20,450 nucleotides of DNA from a virus. Location of the stretch: positions 1 to 20,450 of the IMG/VR virus record IMGVR_UViG_3300021519_000094; one strand, given 5' to 3'. The translations under genes were made by a program, and so were the position numbers. Shown here piece by piece: positions 83 to 19,427 of this stretch; position 1 is the stretch's first letter; each line of letters opens with the position of its first letter. The notes under the pieces are model-generated. The model worked only from the letters and a program-made list of their open reading frames with translations. It ran no database searches and was not told the origin of the DNA.

Positions 83-90
83 TATTTATA
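83..90 (-). promoter_or_regulatory. T4-type late promoter (TATAAATA)
   Basis: Read leftward, the sequence is a perfect TATAAATA, the -10 element recognised in T4 by gp55 sigma with gp33 and the gp45 clamp. It lies in the 32-base gap between two structural genes, 17 bases before the ATG of the leftmost gene. Transcription starting about 6-7 bases downstream would leave a leader of only about 10 bases. No -35 element is expected for this class. Confidence 0.75.
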
Positions 91-2753: not shown

Positions 2754-5700
2754 TCATGTCGATCGAAGGGCCACATTCTGTGGGAATGTGGTGTATCCAT
2801 CAATTCCCGCCGCACCCGAGATAGCCACCAGGTCCACCTCGCCTGTCACGGTGGACAAGGCCGTGTCAATCTGAAGAAGCCCATTTCGCTTGGGTGCAAT
2901 GTCATTTGATGCCGGCTCAGAGTAAATCCTAATGTCTGGGGCGACGGTCGCGGTGTTGACTCCCGAGATGAAGATCTCGTATGCCGTCGACGTGTCAGGT
3001 GTGAATGTGGCCGACGGAGTGAATGTGAATGAATTGGCCGTGGCCGAAGCGATCAGCCCCGTGATGCCAAAGCCTGTACCTGACGTGATAAGCACGGAAT
3101 ATCCCGTGGGATATGATCCTGCCACCGCGTTCCAACTCTTGGAAGTGTCCGTGATCGTGACTGAAGTCGTTCCTCCTCCAGATGACGAATAGGCTACGCC
3201 GGTTTCAGATCGATACAGGTCGCACTTACCGGTCGCAGGATACAGCGTCCCGACCAGGATATCAGTTCCAGGCGTGGGAACTCCCGCCTTATCCGTGGAC
3301 ATGTACAATTTTCTATTGGTCGTGGATCCTGAATCCACGCCATCCTTTAGATGATATCCCAGCTCCGGGCCACTAAACAGCAATGAAGTGGCCACGGTCC
3401 CAGAGGTCGGGGCCGATAGCTCGGCGACATGTGCGTTACTGAAGCTGGCGGATGAGACGGCTCCAAGGTGTGGAGAAGAGACGGAAATCATCATGCCCGT
3501 CGCCGTCAGGGTGGTGGAATATGTCGACGTGATTGGCCCAGACAGGCCAAGAGTGACGCCCGTGAAGGTTACCGCCCCAGAGCCCCCGCCAGTCCCCGTG
3601 ATGGGTGAGGCGAATGTGATTATAAGATTGGCGCTGGCCGTATCTAAAGCAACGGAAACGACCGACCAGCCAATATTGGCGCCGGCAAAACCACCAGACC
3701 CACCCGAGCTCGTAGATATAACCATTCCCGGTGAGATCGTGCCCGTGAGATTTGTCGTGTTGTTCGGGACCGTTATCACATAAGATGAGGAATGGGAGGA
3801 AGCAGAGCTTATGTATGTGTAGGCCGGTCCGATGGAGGTTACAAGCGTGTTGTCCGGAACGCCAGTTCCAGATATGGAGGCGCCGGCCGCCGTTTTAACA
3901 AACTGCGCGGAGCCCGTGACGGTTGTGGAATTTGGGACGGAAAGAGTGATCGTGGTCCCAGATATTGCAGTCACCAAGGCGCCCGCGCCGATACCTCCAC
4001 CCAAAGAGCCCGTGCCCACGGCCGTCGGACAATTGGCCACGGATTGGCCTACGGCGATTCCCGTCGCGGAAGAGACCACGATCGTGGAGGAGCCGGATGA
4101 TCCCGTAACGGCCGTGATGCCTGAGCCCGCAAGCCCGTCGGCAATCGATACGGTCGCAAGCCTTAGGCCATTCGATGTATAAGACTTGGAAGAGCCCGAG
4201 AAATACAATGGGGTGATCGCCGTGACCCGAGCACTTGGCACAATTCCCGTGCCGGAGGCAATCGATCCGATCACACACGGATAGGTTGTTTCAGGAGAGA
4301 CCAGGGTCGATCCCAATATCACTCCGGAAGCAAGGGTCGGATATGCGCCATCCGAAAGAGATGTGACGGCCGTTGAATTAAATGTTATGGTCCCAGACAT
4401 TGTCCCCGCTGATTTGGAAAGTGTGATATTGGTGTTTGCGCCTGATGTGATTGCAGTAGCTACAAATGTATTGGCTGGGATATTGGCGCCAGTTACTAAT
4501 GCCGATACCGTGATACCTGAGGCCGTATCAACCGTCAACTGCGTTCCTGAGCCAGAAACATATGTGGCCGTTTTTGCCGGTATGCCCGTGCCAGAAATTA
4601 TCATACCAGTTGCAATTCCGGGATTAACACCTGTCAATGTGATCGTTGAAGATCCAGAGATGCCTTGTGCCGAGGCCGATACATTGGGCGTGTAAGCCCA
4701 TGAATCCGACTGAATCAATGGAATCGCCTGATCAACGGTTCCATTAAGGCCGCCCGGAAACTGCACGGAAAGAAGCTTCCCTCCCTTTAACGCGGCCAGA
4801 GTTGTCGAGGCCAGAGGATTAGCCGTGAACTTCTTGTAGAAATAGATGTTTGCCTCAGAATTGATTATCGCTGGATTTGATGTATCAATCTGATCTAGAA
4901 GGTTTGAATATCGAAAAATGCCGTCAAAGCGCTCAAGGTTATTGAGTGAGTAATTCTTGACCAATGCCTTGACGCCGTCCTGAAGATCTGATCGAGGCTG
5001 AGTGGTCAGATTCGATGAATACTTGAAAAATACATCCGCATAGATGTATGTGTAGTCAGGATCCACAAAGTTGGTACGAATCGTCATGACCCGCTTTTCC
5101 GCCAGAACCTGAGAGATGGCCGCTTTCTGAACCGCGCTCAGGTTCGATGTGGTGCCAAGCTGTTTGATCGAGATGTATACCTGTCCTGCATAGACCGAAG
5201 CATTCCGCGGATCATATTGCACCTCGTCTTCACCGCCCCAAACGGAAAGTGATGAGATGTATGCGAAGTTGTTGAGGAGAATCGCCTTGTAATCATTGGC
5301 CGTAACGGCCCGGTTTTGTGTGATAAGTGATTGCGGCGCATTAAATCTGACCGATTCTATAGACTCCGCATCTCCGCCTGAGGCGGATGTGAGAACCGTT
5401 GAGATTACTGGAGTTCCGGTAACGCTCCCATCCGTGCCTGAGGCAAAGGTGAATAGAGAGGCACCATTGGCTGGGACGCCTGAAGTGGCTACAAATTCAA
5501 GGGAGACAACATTGAGATTCTTAAGGGTCACGCCAAAATTAGGCGCGCCGTTTGCCGCAGGTTGGCCAAATGAGATCTCATATTGCCCATACACATTCTG
5601 CGAGATAAAATACACGGCAGAATTTGCGGCCGTTGTTGAGAACGAGGAGAACGGCACAAAGGTGGTGTATTTGGATGAATTCTCATAGTCATACACGCGA

Positions 5701-6533
5701 ACCAGAAGAGTCGAAATATCCACGTTAGGATCGGCGATAATGAACTTCTGATTAACCACTGAATTATCCACGACATATGACACGGCTCGAAGCGTGCCTT
5801 CCACAACCCGGATCATCGCATTGGGTGAACCCTTAACGGCGATCGTGTAATGAGTCGTGGAGTCAGGAATGAATGTTTGCGTGCTCGCAAAGGTGAGAGT
5901 GTTGGCCGTGGATGAAAGAATATCAATTGAGTTTCCTGAGCCTGTCCCGTCAAAGATATAGGCGACATATGAGGTGTCGCCGACTGGATTCCATGTTCCT
6001 ACAACCCAATTCTGCGTCGCGTCATACAGTTTTGTGGGCCCAACGGGGGATGTCGCATAGCTTGGAGAGATCACGCCATATGTGAACTTGTATGTCCCAT
6101 CATATGATTTAGAAACGTTTGTCGCGGCGGGGGTGACAAACGTGTATGCAACGGAATTAAGTGTCGAGGTAAACTGTGTTCCACGCGGAAGAGTATATGT
6201 TGTCGCCGCCGAAGCTGGATTTGCCGTGAATGTGGCGGCGAGCAGGGCCTCAGCTCCTTTAACGGAGCGCGGGAGATATCCGAGCAATTTAGCCTGAGAT
6301 GTAACGGATGAGCGAAGCTGTGCCGTGTCAATAAAGCTCTCGTTCAGGGTCATGTGCGCCAGCATCGCATTGTATTGCGTATTGTATGCCAAGACATCAA
6401 GGAGCATGTTGAGGCCAGAGCCATTGAAATCCCAATCCGTGAACGGCGACGATTGCCGCTTAAAGTATGACTTAAGATTTGCCTTGATCTGGTCGAAATC
6501 AAGTTCCGTAACATTGAGGGTCGCTTGTGCCAT
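2754..6533 (-). CDS. 6: Baseplate wedge subunit gp6 (baseplate J-like), enlarged by insertions
   Basis: gp6 in T4 dimerises to form the ring of the baseplate inner wedge. The N-terminus is diagnostic: LDFDQIKANLKSYF (11-24), DWDFNGSGLNMLLDVLAYNTQYNA (33-56, highly conserved) and ESFIDTAQLRSSV (65-77). Residues 395-600 match the gp6 core (TANDYKAILLNNF, a DPDYTYIYADVFFKY strand, RFDGIFRYSNLLDQID). The end resumes gp6-type sequence at about 1055 (GPELGYHLKDGVDSG) and 1210-1259 (NDIAPKRNGLLQID). At 1259 residues it is nearly twice T4 gp6 (660). The excess is an approximately 440-residue block of Gly/Ser/Thr beta modules (about 615-1055) and two copies of a separate module near 170-235 and 1125-1191. 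It lies between gp25 and the gp7-position gene, in T4-like order. No Shine-Dalgarno sequence; CTTAAATA lies 6 bases before the ATG. Confidence 0.93.
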   Translation of the reverse strand: MAQATLNVTELDFDQIKANLKSYFKRQSSPFTDWDFNGSGLNMLLDVLAYNTQYNAMLAHMTLNESFIDTAQLRSSVTSQAKLLGYLPRSVKGAEALLAATFTANPASAATTYTLPRGTQFTSTLNSVAYTFVTPAATNVSKSYDGTYKFTYGVISPSYATSPVGPTKLYDATQNWVVGTWNPVGDTSYVAYIFDGTGSGNSIDILSSTANTLTFASTQTFIPDSTTHYTIAVKGSPNAMIRVVEGTLRAVSYVVDNSVVNQKFIIADPNVDISTLLVRVYDYENSSKYTTFVPFSSFSTTAANSAVYFISQNVYGQYEISFGQPAANGAPNFGVTLKNLNVVSLEFVATSGVPANGASLFTFASGTDGSVTGTPVISTVLTSASGGDAESIESVRFNAPQSLITQNRAVTANDYKAILLNNFAYISSLSVWGGEDEVQYDPRNASVYAGQVYISIKQLGTTSNLSAVQKAAISQVLAEKRVMTIRTNFVDPDYTYIYADVFFKYSSNLTTQPRSDLQDGVKALVKNYSLNNLERFDGIFRYSNLLDQIDTSNPAIINSEANIYFYKKFTANPLASTTLAALKGGKLLSVQFPGGLNGTVDQAIPLIQSDSWAYTPNVSASAQGISGSSTITLTGVNPGIATGMIISGTGIPAKTATYVSGSGTQLTVDTASGITVSALVTGANIPANTFVATAITSGANTNITLSKSAGTMSGTITFNSTAVTSLSDGAYPTLASGVILGSTLVSPETTYPCVIGSIASGTGIVPSARVTAITPLYFSGSSKSYTSNGLRLATVSIADGLAGSGITAVTGSSGSSTIVVSSATGIAVGQSVANCPTAVGTGSLGGGIGAGALVTAISGTTITLSVPNSTTVTGSAQFVKTAAGASISGTGVPDNTLVTSIGPAYTYISSASSHSSSYVITVPNNTTNLTGTISPGMVISTSSGGSGGFAGANIGWSVVSVALDTASANLIITFASPITGTGGGSGAVTFTGVTLGLSGPITSTYSTTLTATGMMISVSSPHLGAVSSASFSNAHVAELSAPTSGTVATSLLFSGPELGYHLKDGVDSGSTTNRKLYMSTDKAGVPTPGTDILVGTLYPATGKCDLYRSETGVAYSSSGGGTTSVTITDTSKSWNAVAGSYPTGYSVLITSGTGFGITGLIASATANSFTFTPSATFTPDTSTAYEIFISGVNTATVAPDIRIYSEPASNDIAPKRNGLLQIDTALSTVTGEVDLVAISGAAGIDGYTTFPQNVALRST
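3369..4691 (-). repeat. Beta-module insertion block within gp6
   Basis: This stretch encodes about residues 615-1055 of the gp6 homologue. The repeating pattern is roughly G-S-S-T-I-T-(L/V) followed by a Gly-rich turn, G-M-x-(I/V)-S-G-T-G-(I/V)-P, a (T/L)-V-T-x-I strand and T-I-T-L-S, ending in T-x-x-G-x-x-x-F. Clear copies begin near residues 627, 672, 815 and 885. T4 gp6 has nothing comparable, and conserved gp6 sequence resumes on both sides. Boundaries are approximate. Copies are diverged at the DNA level, so this is an old protein-level expansion rather than a recent tandem repeat. Confidence 0.7.
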
Positions 6534-6551: not shown

Positions 6552-7007
6552 TTACCGGAGACGTTCAAGGTAGAATGAAATGCGGCCTCGTCTATTTAGA
6601 GAAACGATCGTGAATTCTATCGTGACCCGATACTCATTGGTGTCACTATTATCCACGACCACAACATTGACATTGTTGACACGGGGCTCGTGGTCAGTGA
6701 GCACCCTAGTAATTTCGCTCTGAATAGCCTGAGCCGTTAAATAGTTGGCATTTTCAAACAGGAGCGCTCGAATGTTGCTTCCTAGAAATGGCTGATGCGG
6801 TCGATCGTGATAGTTTGACAGGACCAAGTTCTTAACGGCATTTTTAACCGCGTCAATGTCCGTGAGAGGCGTGATGTCGCCGGAGCCTCCACCGTTTTTT
6901 TTGCCTATAACGCCGAGACGAAGATCAAGGTCAGAATAGAGAGGAGCTTGCGCTACATTGAGCGGCGTGACCCCACTCTTGTTGAAATCTGAATTCGCAA
7001 CGCTCAT
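6552..7007 (-). CDS. 25: Baseplate wedge subunit gp25 (sheath initiator)
   Basis: 151 residues; T4 gp25 is 132. gp25 joins the baseplate wedge to the first sheath ring and nucleates sheath assembly. Its fold was long named lysozyme-like, but it is structural. Family hallmarks in order: LYSDLDLRLG (23-32), GDITPLTDIDAVKNAVKNLV (43-62), RPHQPFLGSNIRALLFEN (69-86) and a C-terminal strand EYRVTIEFTIVSLN. The N-terminal 20 residues are less conserved. It sits between gp5 (13-base gap) and gp6 (18-base gap). AATAAATA overlaps the preceding stop and ends 7 bases before the ATG. No convincing Shine-Dalgarno sequence is present. Confidence 0.93.
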   Translation of the reverse strand: MSVANSDFNKSGVTPLNVAQAPLYSDLDLRLGVIGKKNGGGSGDITPLTDIDAVKNAVKNLVLSNYHDRPHQPFLGSNIRALLFENANYLTAQAIQSEITRVLTDHEPRVNNVNVVVVDNSDTNEYRVTIEFTIVSLNRRGRISFYLERLR

Positions 7008-7014
7008 GCACTTC

Positions 7015-7022
7015 TATTTATT
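7015..7022 (-). promoter_or_regulatory. AATAAATA junction octamer before gp25
   Basis: Leftward AATAAATA matches the late octamer TATAAATA at 7 of 8 bases and overlaps the gp5 stop codon. It ends 7 bases before the gp25 ATG, so transcription from it would be nearly leaderless. It may be a weak late promoter or simply an A/T-rich translation-start context. Confidence 0.35.
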
Positions 7023-7737: not shown

Positions 7738-9162
7738 TTATTTATTGATGTCGTATGAGAGTGAATCCCGCTTAACGCGAAGCTTGCAATAATACTCCGC
7801 GCCAAATGTGTGTATGATCGATGTCACGATATACGTTCCCGAAAGAACGCGATCATAGATGTCATCATCGCTTTTCGAGGCCGTTTTATCATATGCGCCA
7901 AAGTCAATCGCCTTGGGAATTTTAAGAACCACCCTTTTACCTGCCGACAGTGTAAAGTCACCGGCAATGGTGAGATCATGGACAAATGCATCCATGTTCT
8001 CGTTAAACGCGTCAAGATATGAGAGGTTGGCCGGAGATAGGCCATGATAGTTCGAGACGGATCCGTCAGATGAAAATGCGTATTTGTTGGTTGGAACATG
8101 CCCTCGCTTGGCATTGTGCATGTCCTGAAATCCTTTTGAAGAAGGACTCTGAATATCGCTTATCGTGCCTGATGCGTTGCCATTGCGCTTGTCGGCATTT
8201 TTAAGCGGAAGCATGAATTTATCTGAGAGGAGAGAATATCCATTCAGGGTCACGGTATCATCAAACGCATCCGAATAGTTGTAAACTTCCGTCGATAATT
8301 TCTTGGTTGAAAGATCCATGAAAAGGCCAGTTGACCCATATGCGCCACCCATCGCCGGAAGAATCTTGGATAGTTTGAACTCCGATGAAATTGAGTAAAT
8401 TCTCTCCTGGCGCTGCTTAAAGTCCGCCTCCGTTCCCGCGACCGTGTTGAAAATCTTATGGTCAAAATACGTGCGATGGATCGGATTGATTGCCGGATCA
8501 AGGAGGCGCGCATATGATCTGAGCTGAATGCCATCTCGAAGTGTCTCATGGAGAAAGAACGGCGCGGACTTGGCCGTGTCATATGTTCGACGAAGAAGCC
8601 AGGAGGCCGCGTCGAGCGGGTTCATGTACGGGATAACGCCGTGAAAGCGAGAGGAGGCCGCGTCCCATGTCCCGATCTTTGAGGCATTGAGATCGTTGGC
8701 TAAAATACTTCGAATCTCTTCAGATGTCACATTCTGGACGGCGCGTGAAATGCGAAGAAGTTTTGAGAGGTACGCATGCCTTGAGACACCAACAATCGCA
8801 TATACCTGCGTGCTTTGTTGCTTGTCCGCGCGACCATACAATGGATATTCCGTGACAAAGAATTTCAGATCAACGCTCAGGATCTCTGCGGAGGCATAGT
8901 CCTGGCGCCCAATCTTAACATCGATGGTCTCTTGCCCATTAAGCTCATATTCTTCGATAAAGTTCGCAACATCCTTGATGTTGGCCTTGAAAATAAGCGA
9001 AGATGTGTAGAGAGACTCCGTGATCGAGAAATCCGTGATGATGTTCTGAATGTCGGCGGTTTTGCCCGCGTGATTGGTCAGGACAATTGCATCAATATTG
9101 TATGCAAGAGGCGTGAGGGCCTTGAGCGTGTTAGGCTTTACATTTGCGCGGGTAGTGGGCAT
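7738..9162 (-). CDS. 27: Baseplate hub gp27-like protein
   Basis: 474 residues; T4 gp27 is 391. gp27 trimers form the torus that links gp5 to the tail tube. Supporting features are the N-terminal AYNIDAIVLTNHAGKTADIQ strand, the ITDFSITESLYTSSLIFKANI segment (typical of the gp27/gpD tube-like domain), SRHAYLSKLLRISRAVQNVTSEEIRSIL (168-195), and a late FTLSAGKRVVLKIPK strand before the VLSGTYIVTSIIHTF segment common to hub proteins. Its neighbours gp53 (one-base overlap, TAATG) and gp5 (3-base gap) support the call. The start relies on translational coupling; no Shine-Dalgarno sequence is visible. Assignment rests on pattern and context, since gp27 homologues diverge widely. Confidence 0.85.
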   Translation of the reverse strand: MPTTRANVKPNTLKALTPLAYNIDAIVLTNHAGKTADIQNIITDFSITESLYTSSLIFKANIKDVANFIEEYELNGQETIDVKIGRQDYASAEILSVDLKFFVTEYPLYGRADKQQSTQVYAIVGVSRHAYLSKLLRISRAVQNVTSEEIRSILANDLNASKIGTWDAASSRFHGVIPYMNPLDAASWLLRRTYDTAKSAPFFLHETLRDGIQLRSYARLLDPAINPIHRTYFDHKIFNTVAGTEADFKQRQERIYSISSEFKLSKILPAMGGAYGSTGLFMDLSTKKLSTEVYNYSDAFDDTVTLNGYSLLSDKFMLPLKNADKRNGNASGTISDIQSPSSKGFQDMHNAKRGHVPTNKYAFSSDGSVSNYHGLSPANLSYLDAFNENMDAFVHDLTIAGDFTLSAGKRVVLKIPKAIDFGAYDKTASKSDDDIYDRVLSGTYIVTSIIHTFGAEYYCKLRVKRDSLSYDINK

Positions 9163-12143
9163 TATGTGTTGATGGTTGTGCGATATGTCTGGGCGAAGGC
9201 TCGAATATCCTCCGCGCGCACCACGCGTATATTTGCCCGCGCATCATTGAGCTCGAGCTCATGATCCGCATACAGTGTGGTGGAGACCGGAGCTACATTT
9301 CCCGCAAGTGCATCATGGGCCGTCACATTTCTTCCACCTGAATCGGAATATGAATATGGCGCATTTCGCGCAGAGTCAATGGTCGCATATGGCGCGTATG
9401 TGACCACTGAGCCAGAAAAGATCAGATTTGCCGTTGGAATCGCCGGAGATATGAACTTCTCTGAATTTCCATCCCGCCAATCATTATATGATACGGTCCA
9501 GGCATAATTGGCCGAAGCGGCCAAATTGAACTCTGATCCAGGGTTAAGATTTGTGAAATTTGGATTAAGCGTCTCAAGCGTGAAGGTAGATGGCACTTGT
9601 GTCGGAAAATCAGATGGATTGAATGTCGTTAGCCTATCGATAAATGATGAGTCAATGATCTTGGCCGACACGGTTAATTCTATTTTAGGCTGGATAAACT
9701 TTGCCGATACTCCAGATATAAATGGCATCACACTCACTAAAACTGGATCGGACACTATTCGACCAAAAGCGTCCACGGTCATCCCAGTAGTAGGTAGGAT
9801 ACCTACGGCGATTGATCCGACCGTGATTATATTTCCACTTGAATCTGCAATTGAGAGTGGCGCGAGCGCCGAGCCTGAGCTTGTCGTTGTGACCACGGGT
9901 ACAGGAAATGGAATACCCGTAGTTTGTAGATTTAAGTTTGTTGAGGTGGCCGTGTAGAACAAAAGTGGAGATGTTGCACTCGCCGTTACGGCAGAGGAAA
10001 AATAGCTCCCGGCCGTGGCTAGCACCACCTTGGAATATGACCGAGTAAAAGTAAGACTGGAACCAGAAGAAATCACACTGCCTGAAGTGAAATTGCCACC
10101 TCCTCGATTTATAATGTTAATTCGTCCATTTGACGCATCTATCCCGACTACTTGAAATGGGCCAACAAGACCTCCTGAAGCGATGGCGTCCGTATACAGA
10201 TTTGCTCCACTTACATAATCAAGAAGAGAGATTTGAGGTATATTGCCAGTGGAGATGTTAACTCTAACAGTGTCTGCCGCACTGGGCGCGCCCACGCCCG
10301 AGTCTGGAGGTGATATGGAACCGGCACTTGGTACACTCTTTACTACCGGAGAGCCGACGGAAAGGACAGAAACGGAGCCATCCGTAATACTCCCTAGATT
10401 TCCACCCACGGCTTTCTGACCAGCTTGGAGTCCGTTATCCAATTGAACAACGATTGTACTTGAGCCAGTAATGCTTGAAAATGTAGCATTGATTGTAGTT
10501 CGAGATGCGACCGGTATAGGCAACGGTGTTGATATTGCATTTATCTTGGTGACCGGCGCGCCGGTCACGGAAATATTACCACCCACGAGATTGCCCGCAA
10601 TAAGCGTAGAGCCCGTAGGAGTGATGACATCAATATTACCGTAGCCAGGTATACCTCTCTGGAATGTTAATGTCGCGGAGGAAATATTGCCATAGAGAGG
10701 CTTAGAGATATTAACGACTATGTGATTGAGAAGTGAGTAGATGATCACGGAATTAACCACGGATCCTGCCTGAATATTTTGCCCCGTGACATTCATACCC
10801 GCGGCAATGTGTGAAAAATAAACAGTTTCGGATGATATTCCACCGAGATTGATCTCGGTGGAAATACCAATAACCGTTGGAGATGTGACGCTTGTGACAC
10901 GTGTTCCTTCTGGAATGCCCGCGGCGCCATACATTGCCATGCCAACCACAATTCCAGAATTAGTCGAAATCGTAAGTGAAGTGGCACCTGGGGAGGCCGT
11001 GCAGGTGGCCGTGGTGACCGAGCCTGAGGTAATCGACCCCGTGAGTGTCACTGATCCTGAAGTGCCAGTGAAAGGCGCCGTGAATGACGCTAGGCCAGGA
11101 AACACCGTCGTGGAACCGAGCAGGATAGGATGTGTCACCTCGACAAGAGGAGGACGACTGTATCCTGCGCCAGGATTAGTCACTCTTAATCCTACCCTCC
11201 CATAGAGGTCAGAATATATCGCCAATTCAGCGGAGATGGCCGGTGTCTCATCAATTGCCACCTTGATGGGCACGCCGCCATCAAATTCAGAGATATATCC
11301 TGATCCGGGCTCAAGAAGCCGAAGGCCCGTGATGGATCCTGAGCTTCCACTTGACAGGATAGGTTCCACTAGGCATCCTATCCCATTTCCGCCTGAAACG
11401 ACTGCTCGTGGAAACAGTGAAAATGGGCCGCCAGTATTCTTAGCCTGAGAGGCGATTGATATCACTCCGACCGTTCCTTTCTTGATCCAGAGCTGATTTC
11501 GATCTGGGTCATACTTAACGATCCTGGCCAATGCGCCAGAACTTATTTCACGAAGACATACGTTAGGGTTTGTGGAGAAATCTATTCCATTCAGCGCGTT
11601 GATCTGATTGACCCCCGCTTCGTTCAGCGAATATGACCAACCTGAATTGAGACCTACTCGACTAGCAATTTGCTTTGGAGATAGCCACCAGGTGCGATCA
11701 GAAAGAGTCGGCCTATTAAGCGTGCCATTTCCATCCACATATCCGATACCCGTCAGAATGAGGGATTCCGACATGACGAGCACACCGTAATCGTCATATT
11801 CCGCCGCCATGTATCGCTCAAGCTGGCCCGGAGACATAGGCCACGCCGGAAGACCTGACTTGAGCGAATTGTTGATCACAAAGAATGTCCAATAATAGTC
11901 AGGATCTCGGTACAGGAGCTGCGACACCGTATCAGGCCTATCGCCATTCTGAATCCGATAGAACTGGTATGCGATGGCCTCATTAAGCTTGCCCTGATTA
12001 ACCGTGGCATTTCGAAACAAGTCAACAACATTGGTCTTAACGCCTGATCTGGTCCTGATCTGATCGGCCCGAGGAACATTGATGTTTTGGATCAGGGCGC
12101 CAAAATCATAGGTTGTTATGGGAAACTGGCGAAAAAATGACAT
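9162..12143 (-). CDS. 53: Baseplate wedge gp53-like protein with a giant central insertion
   Basis: 993 residues, five times T4 gp53 (196). gp53 links neighbouring wedges in the assembled baseplate. Residues 1-120 are gp53-like: FRQFPITTYDF, a block VDLFRNATVN, then DRPDTVSQLLYRDPDYYWTFF (68-88), the LysM-like core motif, and WPMSPGQLERYMAAEYD. The last 45 residues (LYADHELELNDARANIRVV and RAEDIRAFAQTYR) are the expected gp53 C-terminus. Between them lie about 700 extra residues: two GxGY-x-P-x-V modules (near 280 and 325), then Gly/Ser/Thr beta modules with a GMAMYGAAGIPEGTRVTSVT core (401-420), related to those in gp6. The gap after gp48 is 8 bases, A-rich and without Shine-Dalgarno. Confidence 0.88.
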   Translation of the reverse strand: MSFFRQFPITTYDFGALIQNINVPRADQIRTRSGVKTNVVDLFRNATVNQGKLNEAIAYQFYRIQNGDRPDTVSQLLYRDPDYYWTFFVINNSLKSGLPAWPMSPGQLERYMAAEYDDYGVLVMSESLILTGIGYVDGNGTLNRPTLSDRTWWLSPKQIASRVGLNSGWSYSLNEAGVNQINALNGIDFSTNPNVCLREISSGALARIVKYDPDRNQLWIKKGTVGVISIASQAKNTGGPFSLFPRAVVSGGNGIGCLVEPILSSGSSGSITGLRLLEPGSGYISEFDGGVPIKVAIDETPAISAELAIYSDLYGRVGLRVTNPGAGYSRPPLVEVTHPILLGSTTVFPGLASFTAPFTGTSGSVTLTGSITSGSVTTATCTASPGATSLTISTNSGIVVGMAMYGAAGIPEGTRVTSVTSPTVIGISTEINLGGISSETVYFSHIAAGMNVTGQNIQAGSVVNSVIIYSLLNHIVVNISKPLYGNISSATLTFQRGIPGYGNIDVITPTGSTLIAGNLVGGNISVTGAPVTKINAISTPLPIPVASRTTINATFSSITGSSTIVVQLDNGLQAGQKAVGGNLGSITDGSVSVLSVGSPVVKSVPSAGSISPPDSGVGAPSAADTVRVNISTGNIPQISLLDYVSGANLYTDAIASGGLVGPFQVVGIDASNGRINIINRGGGNFTSGSVISSGSSLTFTRSYSKVVLATAGSYFSSAVTASATSPLLFYTATSTNLNLQTTGIPFPVPVVTTTSSGSALAPLSIADSSGNIITVGSIAVGILPTTGMTVDAFGRIVSDPVLVSVMPFISGVSAKFIQPKIELTVSAKIIDSSFIDRLTTFNPSDFPTQVPSTFTLETLNPNFTNLNPGSEFNLAASANYAWTVSYNDWRDGNSEKFISPAIPTANLIFSGSVVTYAPYATIDSARNAPYSYSDSGGRNVTAHDALAGNVAPVSTTLYADHELELNDARANIRVVRAEDIRAFAQTYRTTINT
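9429..11426 (-). repeat. Central beta-module insertion block within gp53
   Basis: Encodes about residues 240-905 of the gp53 homologue, between conserved N- and C-terminal gp53 sequence. It begins with two GxGY modules (GSGYISEFDGGVPIKV and GAGYSRPPLVEV), continues with GMxxxGxxIPxGTxVTxV-type modules, and then lower-similarity Ser/Thr/Val-rich sequence. Boundaries are approximate. No such insertion exists in T4 gp53. Confidence 0.65.
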
Positions 12144-12151
12144 AGGCTTTT

Positions 12152-13153
12152 TTAAGGAGTCTTACGTACGGTCGTGGCACTTGTCGCAAGCTGAGTATTT
12201 TCATCGATTCCAAGGTTGGAAGTTCCAGATTGAAGTGCCTCAATGTCAATCGCATTAAGGACTCGTGTCTCTTGGTATGATAGGCCAATCGCGACCTCGA
12301 GCGGTGATCCATCCGTTCGAAATGCATTCTGACTCGAGTTGAACGTTGTCGTGAATCCTGTCAGGTAGCATCCGAATATGCGCGGATAATATGGATTTTC
12401 TCGCCCATCGGCATGAAACTTGATCGTCCAGACAGGCGGATAGTCAAGAATAAGGTTTGGCGCACTTGAATCGGCCGAGGCATAGGTGTAACGCCTGAAG
12501 AAATTGTGAATATCCTTGATCACGGCCGTATCGGCCTTGTTCTTGGCGATCATCGTGAAAGCAAATGAGAATGTCCTGACCGTGTTTCCCGTGAATGAGG
12601 TGTTGGTGTTAGGTGCATCAATCTTTTTTTGCGCAAAGAACCCCATCTCTTTGGCCTTATCGCCGATCTTAGGAATAAACTTGGAAATAATACTGGCTTT
12701 TTCTATAGCCTTCAAATTCATTGCCTGATTCACCGTGTCTGATACACCAGTTTTAAGCGCATCCGCCACCGTGCCTTGACCATTTAAAACATTCTGCAGC
12801 GCATCCATTCCCCCAGTGCCTAATTTACCCAGGTCAATTGAAGAGTAACTTCCGCCATCACCAAATGAGACGCCAACCGGCATCGGAAGATGGACATGCT
12901 TAAACATATTCCCAGTTGCGCCATCACCGGGCGATGTGACCGTGGAGAATGATACATGTGGATATCCAGCCAAAGTATTGCTCAGGTCAGATGGAAATGA
13001 CAGTATAAGATTGCCTTCACGGGGCTTAGGTCGCGGCGCTCCAAATATATTCCCGGGAGGCTTAGGGCTGGCATTTTCCACTTCTCGCCGACGCTCTTCC
13101 GCCAGGCGGTAGGTTGGATTATTGAAGTTGAAGTTGTATGCAGGTTCTGACAT
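12152..13153 (-). CDS. 48: Baseplate tail-tube cap gp48-like (gp48/gp54 family)
   Basis: 333 residues; T4 gp48 is 364 and its paralogue gp54 is 320. These proteins sit on the hub and start tail-tube polymerisation. The N-terminus is a Pro/Arg-rich linker (about 20-50). The second half carries the tube-like fold: FTGNTVRTFSFAFTMIAKNK (187-206), AVIKDIHNFFRRYTYA (210-225), LILDYPPVWTIKFH (234-247), FGCYLTGFTTTFNSSQNAFR (260-279) and EVAIGLSYQETRVL (288-301). Choice of gp48 rather than gp54 rests on general resemblance and location at the head of the baseplate operon; the two cannot be separated firmly by eye. A perfect TATAAATA lies 15 bases before the ATG. The gene diverges from gp4. Confidence 0.82.
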   Translation of the reverse strand: MSEPAYNFNFNNPTYRLAEERRREVENASPKPPGNIFGAPRPKPREGNLILSFPSDLSNTLAGYPHVSFSTVTSPGDGATGNMFKHVHLPMPVGVSFGDGGSYSSIDLGKLGTGGMDALQNVLNGQGTVADALKTGVSDTVNQAMNLKAIEKASIISKFIPKIGDKAKEMGFFAQKKIDAPNTNTSFTGNTVRTFSFAFTMIAKNKADTAVIKDIHNFFRRYTYASADSSAPNLILDYPPVWTIKFHADGRENPYYPRIFGCYLTGFTTTFNSSQNAFRTDGSPLEVAIGLSYQETRVLNAIDIEALQSGTSNLGIDENTQLATSATTVRKTP

Positions 13154-13158
13154 AAATA
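13151..13158 (+). promoter_or_regulatory. Rightward late promoter (CATAAATA) for gp4
   Basis: CATAAATA, 7 of 8 to the late consensus, reading rightward and ending 27 bases before the gp4 ATG. Its first three bases are the complement of the gp48 start codon. A start 6-7 bases downstream would give a leader of about 20 bases without a Shine-Dalgarno sequence. Confidence 0.5.
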
Positions 13159-13168
13159 AACATGAAAC

Positions 13169-13176
13169 TATTTATA
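13169..13176 (-). promoter_or_regulatory. Leftward late promoter (TATAAATA) for the baseplate operon
   Basis: Perfect TATAAATA read leftward, 15 bases before the gp48 ATG and inside the 32-base gap between the divergent gp48 and gp4 genes. It is placed to drive gp48-gp53-gp27-gp5-gp25-gp6 and beyond. The predicted leader is about 9 bases, without Shine-Dalgarno. Confidence 0.75.
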
Positions 13177-13185
13177 TCATAAGTC

Positions 13186-13629
13186 ATGGCTTATTCTGGG
13201 CGCTACTCACTTAAAAATCCAGGAAAATACACGGGCGATGGATCACGCGTCATGTTTCGCTCTCTCTGGGAGAGGCAAACATTCCGGTTTCTGGATGAAT
13301 CGCCCGACATCGTGGCCTGGTCATCGGAGGAGATCGTGATCCCGTACATCTGCAAAACGGATAATCGGCCACATCGGTATTTTGTTGATCTTCACATCCA
13401 GTTCCGGGACGGGCGCCAATTTCTCATTGAAATCAAGCCTAAGTGCCAGACCGTGCCGCCCAAAGAGCCATCCAGGCAGACACGAAGATACATCACGGAA
13501 GTGCTTGCCTATGTAAAGAATCAGTCTAAGTGGGATGCGGCCGATGCCTATGCCAAGAGCCGTGGATGGACATTTAATGTGTGGACGGAAGAGACACTTC
13601 GCTCTCTAGGAATTAGACTTCTCACATAA
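13186..13629 (+). CDS. 4: Head completion protein gp4 (nuclease-fold)
   Basis: 147 residues, close to T4 gp4 (150). gp4 (also called gp50/65) acts on filled heads before tail joining and is thought to be a nuclease of the PD-(D/E)XK/TnsA type. Visible hallmarks are the RVMFRSLWERQTFRFLD entry (21-37, with Glu29), WSSEEIVIPY (45-54), the catalytic-type Asp in RYFVDLHIQF (64-73, Asp68), and LIEIKPK (80-86, Glu82 and Lys84). The end KSRGWTFNVWTEETL is also typical. Glu29, Asp68, Glu82 and Lys84 form the expected nuclease set, so the site looks intact. It opens the rightward operon, 32 bases from the divergent gp48. No clear Shine-Dalgarno sequence. Confidence 0.92.
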   Translation: MAYSGRYSLKNPGKYTGDGSRVMFRSLWERQTFRFLDESPDIVAWSSEEIVIPYICKTDNRPHRYFVDLHIQFRDGRQFLIEIKPKCQTVPPKEPSRQTRRYITEVLAYVKNQSKWDAADAYAKSRGWTFNVWTEETLRSLGIRLLT

Positions 13630-13634
13630 AAGTC

Positions 13635-13642
13635 TATAAATA
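13635..13642 (+). promoter_or_regulatory. T4-type late promoter (TATAAATA) between gp4 and the 197-residue gene
   Basis: Perfect rightward TATAAATA in the 21-base gap after gp4. Only 8 bases separate it from the ATG at 13651, so the expected start of transcription falls one or two bases before the start codon and the message would be almost leaderless. Confidence 0.65.
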
Positions 13643-13650
13643 AGAGCGCG

Positions 13651-14244
13651 ATGGCCGACTCAATATTTCAGACACTCTCCGCGGAGGCAAGCGCCGGAGG
13701 CATTACTCGAAGAACCGTCGCGGCTCGAGATTGGTTCATCAAGAGGCTTAAGAGCATTGGGCGGGTAAATCCTTCGGCTATCCTTGCGGATTCAACCCTT
13801 ATCAAAAAGAACGCGCCTCTTCCAGGCCGAATGTTCATGTTCATCTATGACCCGAAAGGGAAAGGTGAGCTTCCGTATTACGATAAGTTCCCGCTCATAC
13901 TTATGGTCGGGCCCGCGACCGATGGATTCTACGGCCTTAATCTTCACTATCTTCCACCGCTTCTTCGTGCTAAGTTTCTTGACAAGCTCATGGCCTTTGC
14001 ATCATCCAAGGACCTTGACGAGAACACCAAGATAGTTTTTTCATACAAGCTTCTCGCATCCGCCTCAAAATTCAAGGAGTTTGCTCCATGCTTCAAACAC
14101 TACCTGACCAGCCACATTAAGTCCAAAATTGAGATGGTTCCTGCGCCGGAATGGGACATTGCCGTGTTTATGCCAACGGAGCAATTTGCTGGAAAGAGCG
14201 CAACGGGTGTGTGGCTTGATTCTCGACAGACGGCCGGAATTTAA
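13651..14244 (+). CDS. Conserved T4-type phage protein of unknown role
   Basis: 197 residues, no function I can assign. The centre is striking and, from memory, recurs in many environmental T4-type phages: GRMFMFIYDPKGKGELPYYD (59-78), then FPLIL, a GFYGLNLHYLPPLLRAKFLD segment (92-111) and a C-terminal WDIAVFMPTEQF strand. The aromatic, Gly- and Pro-rich core suggests a small structural or baseplate/neck component rather than an enzyme; no catalytic motif is seen. It lies between gp4 and a tail-tube-type protein, 21 bases after gp4 with a perfect late octamer between them, and 4 bases before the next gene. A head-to-tail joining or baseplate role is inference from context only. Confidence 0.75.
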   Translation: MADSIFQTLSAEASAGGITRRTVAARDWFIKRLKSIGRVNPSAILADSTLIKKNAPLPGRMFMFIYDPKGKGELPYYDKFPLILMVGPATDGFYGLNLHYLPPLLRAKFLDKLMAFASSKDLDENTKIVFSYKLLASASKFKEFAPCFKHYLTSHIKSKIEMVPAPEWDIAVFMPTEQFAGKSATGVWLDSRQTAGI

Positions 14245-14248
14245 TCTT

Positions 14249-14797
14249 ATGGGATACAATTCTTCAACCGACGTTCTCTCAGCCATCCTAGCAACCAGGA
14301 ATGGATTGGCCAAGACCAATCGCTTTAATGTGATATTCTCCGTGCCAGGAGGAAACACACGGGCCGCGCAAGAGATTGCCATCTTGTGCGAGAGCTGTTC
14401 AATACCGACGCATGCAATCACCACCACGGATTATGCACCCGTTCGTCATCCAGTTAAAATTCCGACAGGATACACAAACGAGGATGTGTCATTCACGTTT
14501 CTTCTCACGTCGGATTTTTACCTCAAAGAACTGTTTGATTCATGGCTTGAGCGGGTGGTTGACCCGATCAGTTATCGCATCCCGTATCAGGAAGACTATT
14601 CATCGGACGTGACTATTGAGCAGCTTGACTCTGAGAACAATAAGGCGTATTCAGTGATACTGCAAAAAGCATATCCCACATCGATATCCGCCATCACGCT
14701 TGATTCTTCCGCAAACGATCAAGTTCAAAAGATGACCGTGACCATGACATATGATGATATCGTCAAGGATAAGACGGGCGGTAAAAGATCAGGATAA
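14249..14797 (+). CDS. Tail-tube-fold protein (gp19/gp54 family)
   Basis: 182 residues from ATG at 14249; T4 gp19 is 163. The pattern fits the contractile-tail tube family: TNRFNVIFSVPGG (23-35), an EIAILCESCSIPTHAI segment (42-57), HPVKIPTGYTNEDVSFTFLL (68-87), DFYLKELFDSWLERVVDP (90-107), and the closing VILQKAYPTSISAITLD strand followed by QVQKMTVTMTYDDIV. This start leaves a 4-base gap after the preceding gene; a longer reading from 14129 would overlap that gene by over 100 bases with unlike sequence, so it is not used. It could be the baseplate-tube initiator gp54 in reduced form, or a tube paralogue; the main gp19 is normally encoded near the sheath gene, outside this window. A weak GGA lies 11 bases upstream. 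Confidence 0.72.
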   Translation: MGYNSSTDVLSAILATRNGLAKTNRFNVIFSVPGGNTRAAQEIAILCESCSIPTHAITTTDYAPVRHPVKIPTGYTNEDVSFTFLLTSDFYLKELFDSWLERVVDPISYRIPYQEDYSSDVTIEQLDSENNKAYSVILQKAYPTSISAITLDSSANDQVQKMTVTMTYDDIVKDKTGGKRSG

Positions 14798-14800
14798 ATA
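14793..14800 (+). promoter_or_regulatory. GATAAATA junction octamer before gp26
   Basis: GATAAATA, 7 of 8 to the late octamer, overlaps the stop codon of the tube-fold gene and ends 4 bases before the gp26 ATG. AGGAT at 14791-14795 could instead serve as a weak Shine-Dalgarno, spaced 10 bases from the start. Promoter function is doubtful. Confidence 0.3.
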
Positions 14801-18313: not shown

Positions 18314-18925
18314 TCAGGAAGTAAACATATTCGTGACAATCGTTTTCATCTTGCACAGCTCAATCCGATCCTTGAGAAATGGGACATATTTCTGTGCGAT
18401 AATGAAATTTGCGTGATGCATCCCGAGCGGGTCAGACACCTTGCGAATGCTCTCGGCCAGGAAACCCGTTAAGGCCTCAAAGATGGAGACCGTTTCAAGC
18501 GAGATGTTTCCAAGCAGCCTTTGCGTCCAAATCTCAGGAGGCCTCCCACCAATCGGCCTGAGAATCAGGTCAAGGCTCGAGTAGGCCTCCGAGAGCCTCC
18601 GAGTGTCGGCCGTGAATCGATATGTGAGTGAGTCAAGCCTGGCCCGTGTCTCGGTCACGGGCTCATCGGTCGTGTCTCCAATCCACTTGTTTCCGCACAG
18701 TATATTGGACACACAGAACCAGACATAGTCGTCATGGGCCGGGTATCGCTTGGCCGCCCTCTCAAAGTAATATCGATCCTTTCTGGACTCAAATGCCGAG
18801 GCCTTGAGATTAGGCATTCGAAAATTGTACCTGTGCGCATCATATGACCCCGTGAAATGAAGGCGAATGGCCGAAAAGATTCGCCATGCATCCACGGGGC
18901 CAATTCGCTGATCGTTCCGATTCAA
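18314..18925 (-). CDS. 59: gp59 loader of replicative helicase gp41
   Basis: 203 residues; T4 gp59 is 217. gp59 binds forked DNA and gp32 and loads the gp41 helicase. Family features: VDAWRIFSAIRLHFTGSYDA (11-30), the HRYNFRMPNLKASAFESRKDRYYFERAAKRY region (31-61, matching T4 DKYNW...RRDKYFFQKLSEKY), then VWFCVSNILCGNKWIGD (68-84, matching FISNLVA..DAWIGD), and an all-helical C-terminal half. The start is TTG at 18925, overlapping the TGA stop of the upstream gene as TTGA; the next in-frame ATG would remove the conserved first helix, so TTG is preferred. Its neighbours gp33 upstream and gp32 downstream are as in T4. Confidence 0.9.
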   Translation of the reverse strand: MNRNDQRIGPVDAWRIFSAIRLHFTGSYDAHRYNFRMPNLKASAFESRKDRYYFERAAKRYPAHDDYVWFCVSNILCGNKWIGDTTDEPVTETRARLDSLTYRFTADTRRLSEAYSSLDLILRPIGGRPPEIWTQRLLGNISLETVSIFEALTGFLAESIRKVSDPLGMHHANFIIAQKYVPFLKDRIELCKMKTIVTNMFTS

Positions 18926-19176
18926 GGCTTCGGGACCGGGTTTCTGAAAGGCAAGATCGTGCCATCAGGTCCCACCACATTATGCCTGATCTTGATGAAT
19001 CGGCTCTTGAGCTTGGGCGGATTACGATTAACCTTGATGCCGTATTTCTCGACAAGTGCATTGGCCTCCGCAAGGATCTCGGGCGGAGGAGTGACGCCGT
19101 TCGAATAAAGCTCCATCATGGATCGAACTTTCTGCGTGTCTTCAGGGGTCATCTTGTCCGTGGGGATGTCTTTCAT
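18922..19176 (-). CDS. Small hypothetical protein between gp33 and gp59
   Basis: 84 residues, not recognised. The N-terminal half is predicted helical and acidic (DKMTPEDTQKVRSMMELYSN, then PEILAEANALVEKYG); the C-terminal half is basic and Pro-rich (NRNPPKLKSRFIKIRH, ending FRNPVPKP). No Cys, no membrane segment. It overlaps gp33 by ATGA and gp59 by TTGA, so translational coupling is likely and the gene is real. In T4, dsbA lies near 33 and 59, but no resemblance to DsbA (89 residues) is visible. A nucleic-acid-binding accessory role in late transcription or helicase loading is only a guess from neighbours and the basic tail. Confidence 0.75.
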   Translation of the reverse strand: MKDIPTDKMTPEDTQKVRSMMELYSNGVTPPPEILAEANALVEKYGIKVNRNPPKLKSRFIKIRHNVVGPDGTILPFRNPVPKP

Positions 19177-19427
19177 GCGTATACCAGCGAGGCCGTGTTT
19201 TTGTTGCGTTTTGAGATGAAGTTGTATGCCATGGCCTCGGCCTCAATCTTGGCATAGAGAGGCGGAGAGATCAACTTAACAATGTCAGATGGATCAAGGC
19301 CAAGTGACTGGCAGATGTGCGTGATCGCCTCGGAATACCTGATCTTGTCTCGATGAACTAGCAATTCCGTGCGCTCGGCAAGAGAGTGCTTGGTGAGCAC
19401 GGGCATGATTTCGTGTGGGGTTTTCAT
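19173..19427 (-). CDS. 33: Late-promoter transcription coactivator gp33
   Basis: 84 residues; T4 gp33 is 112. gp33 bridges host RNA polymerase beta-flap and the gp45 sliding clamp and is needed, with gp55, for activated late transcription. The central block aligns with T4: KIRYSEAITHICQSLGLDPS (28-47) against a SYLEATTAFLEENSI-type helix, then DIVKLISPPLYAKIEAEAMA (48-67) against AKFIPSGIIEKIQSEA. The C-terminal segment FISKRNKNTASLVYA ends in hydrophobics, as required in T4 for clamp contact, though the T4 LDFLL tail is not matched. It overlaps the upstream gene by one base (TAATG) and the next by four (ATGA). Its presence fits the TATAAATA octamers in the window. Confidence 0.85.
   Translation of the reverse strand: MKTPHEIMPVLTKHSLAERTELLVHRDKIRYSEAITHICQSLGLDPSDIVKLISPPLYAKIEAEAMAYNFISKRNKNTASLVYA

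Follow-up and report, generated by a model that had tools for sequence, protein, structure and literature searches.

A probable T4-type late promoter at the gp2 start codon and a candidate class of leaderless late messages in T4-like phages

We analyzed a 20,450-base IMG/VR virus record (this whole stretch is referred to as the window) that carries a T4-like baseplate and neck cluster, and found that a T4-type late promoter is probably set at the start codon of its gene for gp2, with RNA beginning at or within a few bases of that codon. Comparison with related phages points to a fixed, lineage-wide spacing between promoter and start as the real finding, of which the window, with a predicted leader of three bases, appears to be a somewhat looser instance. 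It also suggests that leaderless late genes make up one class of late messages, not all of them. This reading builds on features that we observe: the octamer, its spacing, the identities of the genes, conservation, and a gene for gp33 in the window. In the mechanism we propose, the octamer would be read by RNA polymerase together with gp55, gp33 and the sliding clamp, and RNA synthesis would start at the start codon or a few bases before it. At the spacing of 5 found in many relatives, +1 would be the A of the ATG and the message strictly leaderless, while the spacing of eight in the window would yield the leader GCG. The 5'-terminal AUG would then be bound directly by the ribosome and initiator tRNA, without Shine-Dalgarno (SD) contact.

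PHROGs assignments in the window comprise gp6, gp25, gp5, gp53, gp48, gp4, gp2, gp26, gp32, gp59 and gp33. The features around the gp2 start are:

13151 to 13158, plus strand: CATAAATA, candidate late promoter of gp4, with a predicted leader of 22 bases that holds no SD-like word
13186 to 13629, plus strand: gp4, head closure (phrog_218, E 2.7e-53), its stop codon 21 bases before the gp2 ATG
13635 to 13642, plus strand: TATAAATA, perfect T4-type late promoter octamer of gp2, recognized by its sequence and by its presence at the same place in relatives
13648 to 13650, plus strand: predicted transcription start at 13648 (a G after a C) and leader GCG, from T4 numbering and the sixth-base signal of relatives
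13651 to 14244, plus strand: gp2, DNA end protector, 197 aa (phrog_429, E 4.4e-49)

The preliminary description was right that a perfect octamer ends 8 bases before the ATG of the 197-residue gene. It had also placed the transcription start one or two bases before that ATG, and here T4 numbering, in which the octamer spans -13 to -6 (excerpts of PMC2988020), gives a leader of three bases instead. Such a leader is too short for an SD sequence, and no SD-like word occurs within 18 bases of the gp2 ATG in the window. The start codon is ATG, the AUG expected of a leaderless mRNA. The eight-base spacer between octamer and ATG, AGAGCGCG, has G or C at six positions; in T4 late promoters the stretch that follows the octamer is rich in A and T (excerpts of PMC2988020), a trait that the window's gp2 site lacks and that is seen in spacers of relatives such as GATAT. 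The N-terminus of gp2, MADSIFQTL, matches MADSLFDTL in the relative L006, and a Pfam search with the protein gave no match.

A scan of related IMG/VR phages for gp2 returned 80 loci. With near-copies dropped, 47 of these were combined with the window and seven isolates into a table of 55 rows, in which either NATAAATA or NCTAAATA was accepted as the octamer. It lies 4–8 bases before the start in 29 of the 55 rows, 23 of these at exactly 5. Nine rows have it at 9–16 bases, three of them (L039, L046 and L047) with an SD; three rows have longer spacing, and no octamer was found within 60 bases in the other 14. The gp2 spacing in C48C1 is 27. A tree of gp2 groups the window with L004 (98/92), adjoining six rows of spacing 11, and on it the 4–8 label changes 7 times compared with 18.5 times in shuffles, indicating that gp2 spacing is inherited, yet has been altered several times. 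L004, the window's nearest gp2 relative, has a GTG start at spacing 5, and GTG starts are poor for leaderless translation.

For gp25 we retrieved 82 loci, 77 of them usable and 31 non-redundant, with a query from a spacing-5 phage, so that the set is biased to close kin; starts were picked by alignment to the query, independently of the octamer. In this kin-biased set the octamer (TATAAATA in 30 contexts, GATAAATA in one) lies exactly 5 bases before the start in 31 of 31 non-redundant contexts, and this spacing is kept although the N-terminus moves by -14 to +13 codons relative to the query. Outside it, the gp25 spacing is 8 in Mosig, 16 with an SD in Melnitz and 20 in C48C1; in four cyanophages the 20 bases before gp25 hold no octamer, and in S-BM3, a cyanophage, AATAAATA lies at about 24 bases, judged by eye. 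The five-base arrangement is not general: C48C1, gp25 of Melnitz, the cyanophages checked and T4 are exceptions. A purine word (AGG, GAG or GGA) stands directly 5' of the octamer in 25 of the 31 gp25 contexts (L119-L199), and such a word precedes 10 of 22 sites at spacing 5, compared with 11 of 85 at long spacing. It may belong to the promoter or serve read-through RNA as a distant SD.

These comparisons bear on the alternative that gp2 is expressed mainly by read-through from the gp4 promoter and coupled to the end of gp4 translation, with its octamer adding little. The closely preceding gp4 stop codon and gp4's own CATAAATA fit such an arrangement, as do L053-L057, where gp2 lacks an octamer and its ATG comes immediately after the stop codon of gp4, suggesting coupling to gp4 in place of the octamer; the purine word before the gp25 octamer could likewise act as a distant SD. 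Read-through leaves unexplained, however, why the spacing is exactly five, why unrelated genes share it, and why it tracks the start codon as the N-terminus changes, and we consider this alternative unlikely.

The predicted position of the RNA start was compared with 85 sites of longer spacing. Base six after the octamer is A in 53 of them; 51 of the 85 have a pyrimidine-purine step at that base, versus 25% at other positions (P 5e-12); in the T4 stretch described below, the sixth base is A or G in 83% of 17. Since the step also occurs in 45% of 51 octamers without a start nearby, the signal is not confined to sites with long leaders, and some of those octamers may be promoters too. We take the sixth-base step as probable independent support for T4 start geometry; with a spacing of 5, the sixth base is the A of the ATG and the predicted leader is 0, that is, strictly leaderless. 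The octamer might instead be used with RNA starting elsewhere, or another promoter might give a longer leader: early-type promoters are possible, and the choice of start site is here a prediction from sequence. The agreement of the sixth-base step, in the relatives and in the T4 stretch, with T4 numbering makes this very unlikely.

A preference for spacing 5 extends beyond gp2 and gp25. We pooled 171 non-redundant TATAAATA sites from C48C1, seven longer records and the gp2 loci; for 121 of them a reading frame opens with ATG no more than 60 bases away. Spacing 5 accounts for 22 of the 121 and spacings 4–8 for 35, against a background of 1.67 per position; the Poisson P for the peak at 5 is about 1e-17, and the second commonest spacing is 6, which goes against leaders in multiples of three (spacings 5, 8, 11 and 14), an idea considered by eye. 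The pattern TATAAATA-N5-ATG has 30 matches in 21 records, compared with 1 for the backward control, and in the 105-kb record G007 the spacing-5 set includes tail-tube-like, portal-like and PAAR-like genes (named by eye from their N-termini). In the cultured Pelagibacter phage HTVC008M we used GenBank's own starts, 189 in the record up to its last 4.4 kb. NATAAATA lies at 5 before nine of the 189, among them those of gp2 (NC_020484, 18916, minus strand), gp25 (31132, plus strand) and gp48 (19456, plus strand), where 0.03 to 0.25 are expected; none has the octamer at 9–17 bases, and 20 other words of the same letters give 0 each at spacing 5. Scanned without selection, viral_contigs gave at least 120 loci for TATAAATA-N{0,30}-ATGGCA. 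Among the matches listed, 99 open at least 60 codons, and nine of these have spacing 5, equal to the count at 23; the scan has a local peak at 5, but 5 is not singled out by the scan alone. In a 43-kb stretch of T4, 12 octamer sites stand 14–32 bases from an ATG, nine of them with an SD-like word, and a 45-kb stretch of Syn9 has two octamer-like sites near starts, one of which is TATAAATA at 21 bases.

The AT-rich word could also be a translation-initiation signal, unstructured and S1-binding, rather than a promoter. Its composition and its closeness to the ATG would suit that role, as SD-less RNA needs an open start region. We hold this, too, to be very unlikely, because the word is also present at long distances from starts that have an SD close by, and other words of the same letters have no peak at five.

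Further octamers and near-octamers of the window, with the gp25 gene, are:

83 to 90, minus strand: TATAAATA before the leftmost gene (start 65), with a predicted leader of 12 bases
6552 to 7007, minus strand: gp25, baseplate wedge (phrog_261, E 1.4e-35)
7015 to 7022, minus strand: AATAAATA before gp25, with a predicted leader of 2 bases, GC; its A at -13 is a known T4 late promoter variant (excerpts of PMC2988020)
7739 to 7746, minus strand: AATAAATA 4 bases before gp5, overlapping the end of the upstream gene and possibly fortuitous
13169 to 13176, minus strand: TATAAATA before gp48 (start 13153), with a predicted leader of 10 bases
14793 to 14800, plus strand: GATAAATA 4 bases before gp26, holding the stop codon of the upstream gene and possibly fortuitous

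Three perfect TATAAATA sites are present in the whole 20,450 bases (83-90 and 13169-13176 on the minus strand, 13635-13642 on the plus strand), of which the one at gp2 is the nearest to a start. When the 60 bases before 17 gene starts were dinucleotide-shuffled (n=3000), a perfect octamer ended 3–9 bases before any of the 17 starts in 0.97% of shuffles. ATAAATA occurs 3–9 bases before four of the 17 genes (gp25, gp5, gp2 and gp26), which was equalled in 0 of 3000 shuffles. At gp5, gp26 and gp25 it overlaps the upstream stop codon, and these three sites are weaker than that of gp2; the window alone is thus suggestive, not decisive. Chance placement of the octamer in the window might be read from just one perfect octamer in three being this near a start, but we give it almost no credence in view of the shuffling result, about 1% for the window alone, and the conservation of the octamer at gp2 among relatives.

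Turning to translation, SD-like words lie within 18 bases of the start at four of 35 short-spacing sites of the pooled set, versus 30 of 66 at spacings of at least 18; the corresponding count inside predicted leaders of 0–3 bases (0 of 35) is empty by construction. By the same measure, HTVC008M has them at two of 12 genes spaced up to 8 and at 12 of the 14 spaced more widely (Fisher P 0.001), and in the two short-spacing genes the word is 5' of the octamer or overlaps it. This suggests that the late genes of HTVC008M fall into two classes, SD-led and leaderless. In the window, SD-like words precede two of 17 genes, non-late ones included (shuffle mean 1.6). As this is chance level over all 17 genes, the missing SD does not set the window's octamer genes apart, and the window phage may initiate without SD rather generally. 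The earlier suggestion that late messages may be translated without an SD step is well supported by sequence comparison for the near-leaderless gp2/gp25 type, from spacing 5 in relatives and the nine HTVC008M starts; as a general claim it is too broad, since other late genes of the relatives are long-led, often with an SD. Caulobacter, an alphaproteobacterium and so of the class of SAR11, has 375 leaderless mRNAs that are efficiently translated (excerpts of PMC4117421). Leaderless messages withstand kasugamycin (PMC5230787). The annotation of HTVC008M includes a gene for ribosomal protein S21 (NC_020484, 91228-91431; L116), and a phage-encoded bS21 was considered as a helper; the idea was dropped, as none of the 17 IMG/VR records searched, mainly fragments, had a PF01165 match.

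Several observations count against the main reading: the GC-rich AGAGCGCG, the spacing of 8, the GTG of L004 and an out-of-frame AUG in gp48. The predicted gp48 message opens with this AUG (13161-13163, minus strand; 14 codons), which would be a decoy for ribosomes that capture AUGs at the 5' end; such ribosomes would misread the message, which is unfavourable to the leaderless reading. Leaders of about 5–11 bases had been claimed for the leftmost gene, the gp7-position gene and gp48. Those predicted for the gp7-position gene (7 bases, after the imperfect octamer TATAAATC) and gp48 (10 bases) fall in this range, and that of the leftmost gene, which is gp8-like (N-terminus, judged by eye), is 12 bases. 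The gp25 site of the window, which the preliminary description leaves out, fits the near-leaderless pattern better than these three sites.

Between gp48 and gp4, each strand of the segment 13151-13176 carries a late octamer, and the two are directed past one another, an arrangement also found in T4 (gp53/gp4) and C48C1 (gp48/gp4). The remaining features of the window that concern us are:

19173 to 19427, minus strand: gp33, late-transcription coactivator (phrog_254, E 1.3e-15; PF16805, E 2.8e-16)
98 to 2713, 2754 to 6533 and 9162 to 12143: regions that together code for gp6, gp53 and the gp7-position protein, with Ser/Thr/Gly-rich stretches

Neither gp55 nor gp45 was seen within the 20-kb window fragment, and the open reading frame of 84 residues that lies between those for gp33 and gp59 (18922-19176, minus strand) had no PHROGs match. 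The proteins gp6 (1259 aa), gp53 (993 aa) and the gp7-position protein (871 aa) have long Ser/Thr/Gly-rich stretches outside their conserved parts; a search for a domain common to the oversized baseplate proteins, by comparison of gp6 with gp53, gave no significant match.

We tentatively propose, as a possibility with the odds somewhat against it, that a marine and freshwater T4-like lineage makes long-leader, SD-led late messages beside strictly leaderless ones (gp25 and gp2; in single phages also genes for tail-tube-like, portal-like and PAAR-like proteins), and that locking the promoter to the start sustains 5'-AUG translation of chosen structural genes when SD initiation is weak or altered late. 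If the reading is true, the fixed five-base spacing would mean that in abundant ocean phages the promoter sets the translation start; it would also supply many natural examples of leaderless phage genes and help gene finders to place starts in these genomes. The cultured pair of HTVC008M and its SAR11 host, Candidatus Pelagibacter ubique HTCC1062, makes the idea testable. Searches of the open-licence literature gave no paper on leaderless late messages of T4-like phages; as far as that literature tells, the parts are known and the combination is new.

T4 late transcription is a textbook system. Like T4 late promoters (gp55, gp33, gp45), the sites described here carry the octamer TATAAATA, with variants such as A at -13, and a sixth-base purine, and the window encodes gp33. 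Unlike those of the T4 stretch, where the ATG is 14–32 bases off and an SD accompanies 9 of 12, they stand 4–8 bases from the start without an SD, in many relatives at exactly 5. Every gene-adjacent promoter in the examined T4 stretch leaves room for a leader, in contrast to a promoter that abuts its gene. The resemblance to bacterial leaderless mRNAs, as in Caulobacter (excerpts of PMC4117421), is that the predicted RNA starts at or within 3 bases of the AUG, without an SD; here, as predicted from the DNA sequence, a late promoter of the phage would set the start through its fixed spacing. Phage transcripts are described as 'often leaderless' (excerpts of PMC5312081), and lambda cI is a leaderless phage message (excerpts of PMC9031893). 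Both concern phage genes translated without a leader, as predicted here, but in these excerpts neither T4-like late genes nor a promoter-to-start spacing shared across phages. T4 gene 25 itself has a split ribosome-binding site, in which an SD 27 bases away is brought close by a hairpin, and more distant T4-related phages are without this arrangement (both from excerpts of PMC3014915). The same gene thus has an unusual initiation in both cases, with an octamer 5 bases from the ATG in the phages described here.
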